Source: an uncultured Bacteroidota bacterium (GTDB taxonomy: Bacteria; Bacteroidota; Bacteroidia; 2-12-FULL-35-15). From it: a stretch of 38,289 nt of DNA. The stretch lies in contig CAIWDF010000196.1 of assembly GCA_903911435.1 (NCBI GenBank), positions 1 to 38,289 of the forward strand, given 5' to 3'. The position numbers and the translations under genes are program-made. The notes under the pieces are model-generated. The model saw only the letters and a list, made by a program, of their open reading frames with translations, was not told the origin of the DNA and searched no databases. Below, one piece after another: positions 8,640-35,045 of the stretch (positions are counted from its first letter, which is position 1; each line of letters opens with the position of its first letter).

Positions 8640-8860
8640 GGTGAACCTTTTTCACCAAAACCTACACCTTTTTGTTCATTTGGTGCACCAAAAACGAAAT
8701 TTGGTGCATCAAAAATGGTAAAAGGTGAACCAAAAATTAAAAATGGTGCATCAAAAAGAGAAAAAGGTGAACCAAAAAAGAGAAAAAGGTGAACCAAAAA
8801 AGGAAAATGGTGCACCAAAAACGAAAAAAGGTGCAGGTTTTGGTGAAAAAGGTGTAGGTT
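8640..8860. repeat. 21-bp tandem repeat array with GGTGMAYC core
   Basis: GGTGCACC, GGTGCATC or GGTGAACC followed by AAAAA occurs at 8682, 8703, 8724, 8745, 8766, 8788 and 8809, with a decayed copy at 8830: a strict 21-bp period with one single-base slip. A GGTGAACC at 8640 is exactly two periods before the first clear unit. The core GGTGCACC is a perfect 8-bp palindrome. Reading frames on both strands give 7-residue repeats (FGSPFxI on minus, GEPKxKx on plus), but neither looks like a gene. The rest of 8426-8945 holds no gene that I recognise. Confidence 0.8.
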
Positions 8861-31152: not shown

Positions 31153-32121
31153 ATGGCTGAAGAATCAATATTAAAAGAGAATAAAGACAGATTTGTGCTT
31201 TTTCCAATTAAACATCACGATATATGGGAGATGTATAAAAAGGAAGAAGCAAGTTTTTGGACTGCCGAAGAAATTGACTTGAACCCTGATTTACAAGATT
31301 GGGAAAACAAATTAAACGAAGACGAAAAACATTTTATTAAACACGTGCTTGCTTTTTTTGCTGCAAGTGATGGAATCGTGAACGAAAATTTAGCTGTCAA
31401 CTTCATGAAAGAAGTGCAGTACCCAGAAGCGAGATGCTTCTATGGGTTTCAGATAATGATGGAAAACATCCATTCCGAAACCTACTCTTTACTCATCGAT
31501 TCGTATATCAAAGACCCAAAGGAAAAGGATAGACTTTTTCATTCAATAGACACATTGCCATGTGTTGGTAAAAAAGCCGAGTGGGCAATAAAATGGATAG
31601 GAAACGGAACTTTTGCGGAAAGATTAATTGCCTTTGCTGCCGTTGAAGGTATTTTCTTTTCCGGAAGTTTCTGTTCCATATTCTGGTTAAAGAAACGTGG
31701 ATTAATGCCGGGTCTAACTTTTTCGAACGAATTAATTTCACGTGACGAAGGTTTACATTGCGACTTTGCATGTCTGCTTTATTCTCAATTAGACCACCCA
31801 TTGCCAAAAGAACAAGTTACAGCAATTATCACCAATGCCGTGGAAATTGAAAAAGAATTTGTATCGGATGCTTTACCGGTGAGTCTTATTGGCATGAACG
31901 CAAAATTGATGTGTCAATACATCGAGTTTGTGGCCGACAGACTTTTGGTGGCATTAGGATGCGAGAAAGCATACAATGCAATTAACCCTTTTGATTTTAT
32001 GGAACTTATTTCACTACAAGGGAAAACTAATTTCTTCGAAAAACGTGTGGCTGAGTATCAGAAATCAGGCGTTATGGGCAAGAAAGAAGATAACATCTTT
32101 TCTTTAGATGAAGATTTTTAA
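31153..32121 (+). CDS. nrdB: Ribonucleoside-diphosphate reductase, small subunit (class Ia R2)
   Basis: A 322-residue R2 protein that houses the di-iron tyrosyl radical needed for deoxyribonucleotide synthesis. Metal ligands are visible in [13 protein letters not shown] (Asp), [13 protein letters not shown] (Glu, His and the radical-bearing Tyr in ETYSLL), AVEGIFFSG (Glu), and [14 protein letters not shown] (Glu and His). The sequence is closer to the eukaryotic-type R2 ([20 protein letters not shown]) than to E. coli NrdB. The C-terminal tail NIFSLDEDF should dock to NrdA. The stop is followed 2 nt later by the left arm of the inverted repeat that bounds the inserted four-helix gene; nrdA follows that element. 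Confidence 0.96.
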
Positions 32122-32123
32122 AA

Positions 32124-32610
32124 AAGTATTAAGTACAATGTATTATGAAATAACCTTAACTTAAATATCAGTTTAAATTGATCTTATCGAAAATACTAAA
32201 TACAGAATTTAAAATATAATTAATAATGCATAAATTTAAAGAACTAACCGTATGGACTAAGGCTGTAGATTTAGCGGCAGATATGTACAAAATAACAGGG
32301 AGATTTCCTTCAGATGAAAAATTCGGACTAATTGCACAAATCAACAGATGCGCTGTTTCTATTCCGTCAAATATTGCCGAAGGTTCAGGGAGAAATACAA
32401 GTGGAGAATTTATCCATTTCTTAGGAATTTCTATTGGATCTTCATTTGAACTAGAAACTCAACTTATTATTGCAAACAAACTCGATTACATAGATAACGA
32501 AACACTTGAAATTACCGTAAAGAAAATAAATGACATTCAGAATATGACATTTGGATTACTAAAGAAAATCAAAGAACAACAGAAATCATAATACATAATA
32601 CTTAATACTT
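32124..32610 (+). mobile_element. IVS-like element: four-helix-bundle gene bounded by 25-bp inverted repeats
   Basis: The left arm 32124-32148 (starting AAGTATTAAGTA, ending ATGTATTATGA) and the right arm 32586-32610 are inverse complements at 23 of 25 positions, differing only at the central two bases. They enclose a leader of 77 nt and the S23/IVP gene, whose stop codon lies inside the right arm. The element starts 2 nt after the nrdB stop and ends 8 nt before the nrdA start. Removing it would leave about 10 nt between the two genes, normal operon spacing. In 23S rRNA, intervening sequences have the same plan and are cut out by RNase III. The AT-rich flanks do not allow a target duplication to be called. 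Confidence 0.6.
32226..32591 (+). CDS. Four-helix-bundle protein (S23 / 23S rRNA intervening-sequence protein family)
   Basis: 121 residues with the full IVP signature: FKELTVWTKAVDLAADMY, FPSDEKFGLIAQINRCAVSIPSNIAEGSGR, EFIHFLGISIGSSFELETQL, and a last helix ending in basic residues. These proteins form pentameric four-helix bundles and are relatives of Avd of diversity-generating retroelements; their cellular role is not settled. Usually they occur in 23S rRNA intervening sequences or as scattered genes in Bacteroidetes. Here the gene separates nrdB from nrdA and is bounded by inverted repeats, with the TAA stop overlapping the right arm. In its leader an 8-bp inverted repeat (TTTAAATT at 32172, AATTTAAA at 32206) may fold. 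Confidence 0.93.
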   Translation: MHKFKELTVWTKAVDLAADMYKITGRFPSDEKFGLIAQINRCAVSIPSNIAEGSGRNTSGEFIHFLGISIGSSFELETQLIIANKLDYIDNETLEITVKKINDIQNMTFGLLKKIKEQQKS

Positions 32611-32618
32611 AAATAAAA

Positions 32619-35045
32619 ATGTACGTAATAAAAAGAGATGGAAACCGAGAGTCGGTGAAGTTTGATAAAGTAACAGCTCGAATTCAGAAGCTTTGTTATG
32701 GTCTAGACCCTCATCATGTAAACCCTATTAATGTTGCCATGAAGGTGATCGAAGGAATATATGAAGGAGTAACCACCATTGAATTGGATAATCTTGCTGC
32801 CGAAACTGCCGCTTCGTTGACAACAAAACACCCCGACTATGCATTATTAGCGAGCCGCATAGCAGTTTCTAACCTTCACAAAAACACTAACAAATCGTTC
32901 TCGAAAACGATGGAAGCTTTGTATCAATTTGTGGACCCTAAAACAGGAAAAAAAGCACCGTTAATTGCTGATGATGTATTTGAAATAATACAAAAGAATG
33001 CACAAGAACTTGATTCAACCATCATCTATGATAGGGATTTTGGTTATGATTACTTTGGATTCAAAACACTAGAACGTTCGTATTTATTAAAAATAAATGG
33101 CAAGGTAGCCGAACGTCCTCAGCACATGATTATGCGTGTATCGGTGGGCATTCACAAAGACGATATTGCATCGGTTATCGAAACGTATAATTTAATGAGT
33201 GAACGCTGGTTTACACATGCTACTCCTACTTTGTTTAACGCAGGTACTCCTAAGCCTCAAATGTCTTCTTGTTTCTTATTAACCATGAAAGAGGACAGCA
33301 TTGATGGAATTTATGATACCTTAAAATCATGTGCTAAAATTTCGCAAAGTGCAGGAGGAATTGGCTTGAGTATTCACAATGTACGTGCTACTGGCTCGTA
33401 CATCAGAGGAACAAATGGCACTTCGAATGGAATTATTCCCATGTTGCGCGTATTCAACGACACCGCTCGTTACGTTGACCAAGGTGGAGGAAAACGAAAA
33501 GGTTCGTTTGCAGTTTATATCGAACCATGGCATGCCGACATCTTTGAGTTTCTAGATTTACGAAAGAATACTGGTAAGGAAGAAGCACGTGCCCGCGATT
33601 TGTTTACCGCTTTATGGACTCCCGATTTATTTATGAAACGTGTGGAAGCAAACGGTGAATGGTCTTTATTTTGCCCGAACGAAGCACCCGGCTTATCGGA
33701 ATGTTGGGGAGCCGAATTCGAGAAATTATACACTCAATATGAAACGGAAGGCCGTGCTCGCAAAACAATAAAAGCGCGTGAACTATGGACTGCTATTATT
33801 GACTCGCAAATAGAAACAGGAAACCCTTATATGTTGTACAAAGATGCATGTAACGGAAAAAGCAATCAACAAAACTTAGGAACCATCAAATCATCGAACC
33901 TGTGTACCGAAATAATGGAGTACACAGCGCCTGATGAAATAGCGGTGTGTAACCTTGCCTCCATCGCATTGCCTCGTTTTGTGGAAGGAGGAAAATTCGA
34001 CCATCAAAAATTATTCGAAGTAACCATTGCTATCACCAAAAACTTGAATAAGATTATCGACCGTAACTATTACCCAGTGGCCGAGGCACGCAATTCGAAC
34101 ATGCGTCATCGCCCAATAGGAATAGGAGTGCAAGGTCTGGCTGATGCATTTATTTTGCTTCGTTATCCATTCGATTCTCCTGAAGCCATTCAGTTGAATA
34201 AAGAAATACACGAAACCATTTATTATGCTGCAATGACAGCTAGTAAAGATTTGGCGATACAAGAAGGTCCTTACGAAACTTTCGTTGGCTCACCGGTTTC
34301 GAAAGGAATATTTCAGTTCGACATGTGGGGTGTAACTCCATCGCCACGTTGGGAATGGGATGTATTGAAAGAGGAAGTAATAAAACATGGTGTGCGCAAT
34401 AGTTTATTGCTTGCTCCGATGCCAACTGCTAGTACCTCGCAAATACTAGGTAATAACGAATGTTTCGAACCATACACTTCGAATATTTATGCTCGCAGAG
34501 TATTGTCGGGTGAATTTGCAATTGTGAATAAACACTTATTGAAAGACCTTGTAAAGCTAGGTATATGGAATGATGGATTAAAAAACAAAATCATTATTGC
34601 TAATGGTTCTGTTCAGAATATTCCTGAAATACCCGATAATATTAAAGCGTTGTATAAAACCGTTTGGGAAATCTCTCAGAAAGTCATTATCAATATGGCT
34701 GCCGACCGTGGTGCGTATATCTGTCAATCGCAATCTATGAACTTGTTTGTGCAAGACGCCAACTTTGCTAAACTTTCTTCGATGCATTTTTATGGTTGGA
34801 AAGCAGGTTTAAAAACAGGAATGTATTACCTAAGAACAAAAGCTGCAGCTGATGCCATTAAATTTACTGTAGACACATCAGTAGCTAAAGAAGTGCCAGA
34901 AGTATTGGGCAACGAAGATACCCTTGTGCTTGAGCGCCAACAACAATTGGCTGCCGACCGTCAAGCTTTGTTAGAAGCAGAAAAGATTGCACAGATTACT
35001 TGTTCTATCGACAACAAAGACGATTGTGAAGCATGTGGTAGTTAG
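32619..35045 (+). CDS. nrdA: Ribonucleoside-diphosphate reductase, large subunit (class Ia R1)
   Basis: An 808-residue catalytic subunit. The N-terminal ATP-cone (about 1-95, [22 protein letters not shown]) gives allosteric activity control. Active-site features are the first redox cysteine in [11 protein letters not shown], the NLCTEI cysteine region, the radical-transfer tyrosine pair in [11 protein letters not shown], and the phosphate-binding [20 protein letters not shown]. The C-terminal tail carries the CEAC cysteine pair that exchanges with thioredoxin or glutaredoxin. It works with NrdB encoded upstream. The start is 8 nt after the end of the right inverted-repeat arm, so its ribosome entry may be affected by that stem. 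A strong terminator lies between it and polA. Confidence 0.96.

Follow-up and report, generated by a model that had tools for sequence, protein, structure and literature searches.

We propose that the gap between the ribonucleotide reductase genes nrdB and nrdA of an uncultured Bacteroidota bacterium is occupied by a small mobile element. The DNA analysed is a stretch of 38,289 nucleotides (hereafter the window), and we put at roughly three in four the probability that its positions 32124-32610 are one copy of a widespread mobile IVP element in which the two arms pair, RNase III likely cuts the paired arms, and the IVP likely recognises them. As we picture it, the element is a single IVP (PF05635) gene between inverted arrays of degenerate 7-nt, sometimes 8-nt, repeats, and it would have inserted in sense into the nrdB-nrdA gap. 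The nrd element is an operon-borne relative of the rRNA intervening sequences (IVSs). Heptamer fences of this kind surround most IVP relatives in many phyla, which points to a type of mobile element that is widespread but has drawn little notice.

All parts of the locus lie on the plus strand. Upstream is nrdB, the gene for the ribonucleotide reductase small subunit (31153-32121; Pfam PF00268, E 7e-120), and 2 nt beyond its stop codon lies the left arm (32124-32148), AAGTATTAAGTACAATGTATTATGA, which reads as the degenerate heptamers AAGTATT-AAGTACA-ATGTATT-ATGA, with G present and only one C. It is followed by an AT-rich leader (32149-32225, delimited on the basis of sequence), by a 121-aa open reading frame for the IVP, an S23 four-helix-bundle protein (32226-32591; PF05635, E 5e-37), and by the right arm (32586-32610), whose reverse complement, AAGTATTAAGTATTATGTATTATGA, matches the left arm at 23/25 positions. 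The IVP stop codon (32589-32591) falls inside the right arm, which is separated by 8 nt from the ATG of nrdA, the large-subunit gene (32619-35045; PF02867, PF00317 and PF03477). Both arms, their 23/25 complementarity, the two distances and the place of the stop codon are exactly as the preliminary description of this DNA had given them, and the Pfam match confirms that the gene filling the gap belongs to the S23/IVP family, as it had proposed; the degenerate 7-nt repetition within the arm is a point beyond that description. The leader holds AATACTAAATACA (about 32193-32205), a short piece resembling the right arm, and some relatives carry full hairpins at this leader position, between the left arm and the IVP start.

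The score of the arms was reached by none of 5000 dinucleotide shuffles of both flanks (p about 2e-4), and elsewhere in the 38-kb window only a single site has an inverted pair of 25-mers that match at 23/25 positions within 620 nt. In the predicted transcript fold, MFE and centroid structure alike, one arm is base-paired to the other, and the energy of the duplex is -24.3 kcal/mol; this suggests that a stem would form in the nrd transcript. Terminal inverted repeats predicted to pair, and an ORF on the strand of its host transcript, are thus present as in an IVS; the location is a different one, between nrdB and nrdA and not within a 16S or 23S rRNA gene. By a crude test with eight 23S signature motifs, none of the fetched loci contained more than one. 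No Rfam family covers the nrd locus, where the sole match is Ocean-VII (E 0.33, far under the gathering score), and INPHARED holds no matching phage record. Readings of the locus as a type III toxin-antitoxin system or an intrinsic terminator were discarded as wrong in fold, repeat length and position.

The nrd-site IVP scores 126.8 bits against PF05635 (curated cut-off 33.8) and 119 bits against TIGR02436 (cut-off 24), and its AlphaFold model (pLDDT 96.6) is a four-helix bundle with helices at residues 8-24, 29-54, 59-85 and 91-120. The best PDB matches are 2gsc, which is XCC0516 (TM 0.91), and 2rld, which is BT_0352, followed by Avd of diversity-generating retroelements (DGRs); among these structure matches no catalytic relatives are known. 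XCC0516 has been reported to be a homopentamer (PMC4990558), and the IVP is probably pentameric. The four-helix fold, shared with Avd (4dwl), and weak matches to the bAvd and DivGenRetAVD profiles would allow the IVP to be taken for an Avd-like subunit of a DGR, Avd being part of solved DGR reverse-transcriptase RNPs (e.g., 8ube). We hold this to be extremely improbable: both matches fall below the curated cut-offs, and since the genome has no RVT_1 (reverse transcriptase) match, the nrd element is not a DGR. The IVP gene is present in 116/148 sampled Bacteroidota genomes, and its median dN/dS of 0.09 (81 pairs) indicates purifying selection.

Inverted arms are a feature of the IVP family as a whole. 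They were found at 79% of 227 distinct IVP loci, as compared to 1.2% of shuffled flanks, these loci coming from all of the collections (Bacteroidota, Cyanobacteria, Gemmatimonadota, Geobacter and viral contigs). For the genomes of the same genus, arms were scored as present when the flanks matched in inverted orientation at least as well as they do in 4.5% of the 292 control genes; 84.5% of 84 distinct IVP genes passed this threshold (p 1e-37). Where the GC content of the flanks is 45% or more, 70% of IVP loci still have arms, and arms accompany 85% of the 27 IVPs on viral contigs and 9/9 IVP loci on cyanobacterial plasmids; armed examples come also from Flavobacterium, Pedobacter, Mucilaginibacter, Geobacter, a Gemmatimonadetes MAG, Gemmatirosa and a Riemerella plasmid. 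About 20% of IVP loci are armless by the arm test, and at these the arms may have decayed, may lie beyond 250 nt, or may be missing from a whole subfamily. Three other IVP loci are present in the genome of the nrd element, each adjoining a different heptamer-like array: one in the sdhA-sdhB gap with AATAGCG arms, one at a contig end with a TGAGATG array, and a broken copy with AATGTGCC around the IVP.

The arms have a marked 7-nt period. The best period was 7 in 140/169 cases and 8 in 18/169, and the arm autocorrelation is 0.63, 0.61 and 0.57 at lags of 7, 14 and 21, as compared to about 0.28 at other lags. Because left arms are richer in G than in C (151 of 160), a single arm could hardly fold upon itself and would pair with its partner arm. 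Stops in all three frames are also in excess in the arms (43% of left arms against 24% when shuffled), an observation that we set aside as evidence because any 7-nt period with a stop triplet mostly gives the same.

Arms and IVP are linked. Arm similarity tracks IVP identity (Mantel p 0.001), and arms from the same locus pair better than arms from different loci in 87% of 216 same-subfamily pairs. For 16 pairs of IVPs that are at least 70% identical and lie at different sites, arm likeness is 0.51, as compared to 0.53 for the same site and a background of 0.19. From these comparisons the IVP and its arms appear to travel as one unit. Alternatively, the heptamer arrays might be pre-existing, slippage-prone repeats in which IVP genes land, an idea encouraged by the IVP-less arrays and hairpins in the same genomes, even at the same sites. 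We find it doubtful, however, as the two arms are inverted and not direct, the arm family moves with the IVP subfamily to different sites, and no array is present at the insertion point of the empty plasmid sites described below.

Of 28 genomes in which the nrdB-nrdA gap was examined, three (G000, G005 and G019) contain an IVP gene there, and in the nrd tree each of these falls in a separate clade. Their nrd-site IVPs are mutual nearest relatives (67-72%), so an old insertion followed by many losses is as likely as repeated insertion, and both histories fit; right-arm-like remnants found 5' of nrdA in G020, G013, G018 and G006 favour loss. At the sdhA-sdhB junction, AATAGCG-type elements are present in five genomes, G032 has a different IVP with TTTGATAATTTGG arms, and G024 has an empty 30-nt gap, its SdhB and that of G000 sharing 99% identity. 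In Mucilaginibacter and a Prolixibacteraceae MAG, elements of other arm families occupy this junction. Such a distribution bears on whether the element serves the nrd operon as a fixed regulator that sets the R2:R1 ratio, as its position directly before nrdA and its stable predicted stem might lead one to suppose. We consider this very unlikely, given that it is missing from 25/28 relatives and that the same architecture recurs in sdhA-sdhB, cas6-cas4, plasmid tra operons and many others.

Side observations at these junctions concern other repeats. The IVP-free nrdB-nrdA gaps of G003, G009, G014, G017, G026 and G035 (L083, L088, L089, L091, L084 and L081) hold other short repeats, of the CCTTCGACTACGCTCAGGGTGAC and ACGAATTTACGAA types, so the nrdB-nrdA junction accepts many small elements. 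In the nrdB-nrdA gap of G019 (L095) and the sdhA-sdhB gap of G026 (L117) each arm resembles a complete hairpin, which makes the layout there hairpin-IVP-hairpin and not a single long-range stem.

Complete, closely related plasmids of Nostoc, Calothrix and their kin provided five sets of filled and empty sites. An IVP element in pNsp_a, pC052_D and pNPM1 occupies a site that is a 3-nt gap in pC052_A. At the adjoining junction of that operon pNsp_c has another IVP element, and in the empty form of this site the stop and start codons overlap as TAATG. Further filled and empty pairs were found between Nostoc C052 and C057, and between Calothrix brevissima and both Aulosira and Tolypothrix. On a Nostoc edaphicum plasmid (L222, 1495-1863) the genes for the alpha and beta subunits of ribonucleotide reductase flank an IVP element that has TAGGGAG arms and is antisense to both, and the site is empty in a Calothrix relative (L317). 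IVP-less hairpins of the same arm family occur in an upstream gap of pNsp_a and pC052_B, and in pNPM1 (L323, 1231-1795) a 182-nt IVP-less heptamer hairpin splits an IVP gene of which 98% identical copies are intact; this insertion has blunt ends and no target-site duplication. Among the plasmid filled and empty sites no consistent target-site duplication was found, the candidates ATTCTAA (L320/L323 site) and ATG (L230 site) being possible and unconvincing. Nor does the element have the transposase and target-site duplication of a DNA transposon or IS: its sole ORF is the IVP, the one clean insertion is blunt and the rest are ambiguous.

The preliminary description had supposed that a mobile IVS-like unit had entered an mRNA. 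That supposition is backed by the junctions that are empty in 25/28 relatives, by further IVP copies bounded by inverted repeats in the same genome and across phyla, by the plasmid pairs and by the heptamer arm of the Coxiella IVS, and the mobility of the IVP family appears well supported by these sequence comparisons. Presumably the IVP, or the IVP RNA, takes part in the movement. One might argue instead that the IVP is host cargo carried by chance, for instance a CRISPR accessory or defence gene, and 18 IVP genes have indeed been reported in cas loci, where they were discussed as an assorted associated function (PMC3936711). There is in our view little chance that this holds, as the cas6-IVP-cas4 copies on Pseudanabaena and Anabaena plasmids (L223, 1501-1860; L225, 1483-1851) bear heptamer arms, and IVP hosts are a range of unrelated operons. 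The IVPs between cas6 and cas4 look like insertions, and if that is true, IVP genes in cas operons would be insertions and not CRISPR parts.

Across the family, IVP elements fill intergenic gaps almost exactly. The median distances are 1 nt from the upstream stop to the left arm and 8.5 nt from the right arm to the downstream ATG, which makes the 2 and 8 nt at the nrd site typical; the precise intergenic placement stressed in the preliminary description is indeed precise, and it is the rule throughout the IVP family and not special to the nrd site. Both neighbours are co-directional with the IVP at 142/147 loci of the same-genus and named-genome sets, as compared to 37/74 small control genes, and the upstream neighbour is so at 145/147, as if the IVP depended on read-through from the host transcript in the manner of the rRNA IVS ORF. 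The sense bias is not absolute, since 3/9 copies on cyanobacterial plasmids are antisense to both neighbours, and it could come from selection and not from mechanism.

With regard to mechanism, we propose that in the polycistronic RNA the paired arms would loop out the IVP message and leave no more than about 10 nt plus the width of a helix between nrdB stop and nrdA start. RNase III would then most likely cut the stem, as in the rRNA IVSs, releasing the IVP RNA and splitting the nrd transcript; for the nrd-site stem we infer this by analogy. Alternatively, the arms might be a loop-out device only, one that hides the insertion and keeps the nrdB stop and nrdA start close for translational coupling, with no cut by RNase III. 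Consistent with this are the family-wide spacing, in which the left arm adjoins the stop of the gene before it and some 8 nt separate the right arm from the following ATG, and the pairing of the arms in the predicted fold. Stems of 25-35 bp are, however, typical RNase III substrates, and an RNase III gene is present in the genome carrying the nrd element. Moreover, the heptamer-armed IVS of Coxiella 23S rRNA, which has a 28-bp stem, tandem GACAGAT heptamers in the 5' arm and an ORF in sense, serves in vitro as a substrate of RNase III, which cleaves where the first heptamer repeat begins (PMC4990558). A role in looping out alone is therefore one that we rate as unlikely, if worth keeping in mind, and we prefer a stem that is cut. 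Recognition of the arms, in RNA or ssDNA form, is most likely a function of the IVP itself, which would aid the persistence or spread of the element, as the purifying selection on the IVP and the dependence of arm sequence on IVP subfamily suggest. Such an element would tolerate essential operons by occupying only the gap between genes, and it may cut host mRNAs.

To our knowledge, IVP genes have since 1993 been known only as curiosities of 23S rRNA. The rRNA IVSs of Leptospira and Coxiella resemble the nrd element in having one sense S23/IVP ORF, a stem of 25-28 bp and a length of about 430-510 nt, whereas the host of the IVP element here is a protein-coding operon, the arm families are very diverse and there are many copies per genome. 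Given the anatomy that the Coxiella IVS shares with it, rRNA IVSs are by analogy probably copies of the heptamer-armed IVP element in rRNA genes. There is some likeness also to REPIN/RAYT systems, in which RAYT is a tyrosine transposase, and to MITEs. These too are short inverted intergenic units, presumably moved by the protein of a fuller copy (PMC3116915), whereas no catalysis is known for the IVP, a four-helix bundle, and its arms are heptamer arrays.

Heptameric repeats have been described as over-represented in bacteria, with no source given, and each Xanthomonas genome contains 70-75 convergent inverted pairs of GGGAATC, close to the ends of upstream genes (PMC4692102); TAACTGA repeats have likewise been reported in Beggiatoaceae, Cyanobacteria and Bacteroidetes (PMC4679880). 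The heptameric repeats, or STRR, of Nostoc, Calothrix, Xanthomonas and Beggiatoaceae share with IVP arms the 7-nt unit, the tandem arrangement and an intergenic position close to the end of the upstream gene. They were published without a link to IVP, whereas the heptamers seen here are arms of IVP elements or their IVP-less derivatives, Xanthomonas being compared by description. We found no paper in the open-access literature that ties IVP genes generally to heptamer repeats, and others may exist beyond it. We suggest, tentatively and at somewhat less than even odds, that the IVP is the recognition or mobility protein of a new minimal class of mobile element, made up of one 120-residue protein and inverted heptamer arrays, which inserts in sense at gene boundaries within transcripts, and that this class is the source of the IVP-less hairpins, of the heptameric repeats of Cyanobacteria, Xanthomonas and Bacteroidota, and of the rRNA IVSs. 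IVP elements may in this way account for the puzzling seven-letter repeats of bacterial genomes, and the joining of IVP genes with heptameric repeats makes a testable unit and a very small candidate mobile element.

Several further repeats were observed. The 12-mer AAGTATTAAGTA occurs 16 times in the genome, as compared to 0 for the reversed letters. Long IVP-free AAGTATT/AAGTACA/ATGTATT arrays are present on G000 contigs 53, 141, 149, 173 and 225 (L009, L011, L015, L020 and L023), 3' of genes whose 3' ends resemble secretion-sorting domains, and at some of these arrays AATAGCG-like repeats lie just upstream. The abundance of IVP-less heptamer hairpins genome-wide was dropped as a line of argument, a strict scan of 400 kb of control DNA having returned 3 as compared to 1 in shuffled DNA. 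Within the window, positions 8644-8854, where no long ORF is present, contain a further strong inverted repeat embedded in arrayed AAAAAGGTGAACCAAAAA-type repeats, and tandem repeats by the contig end (38054-38288) give a translation that repeats FMP(S/F)AISQDMLLKT.
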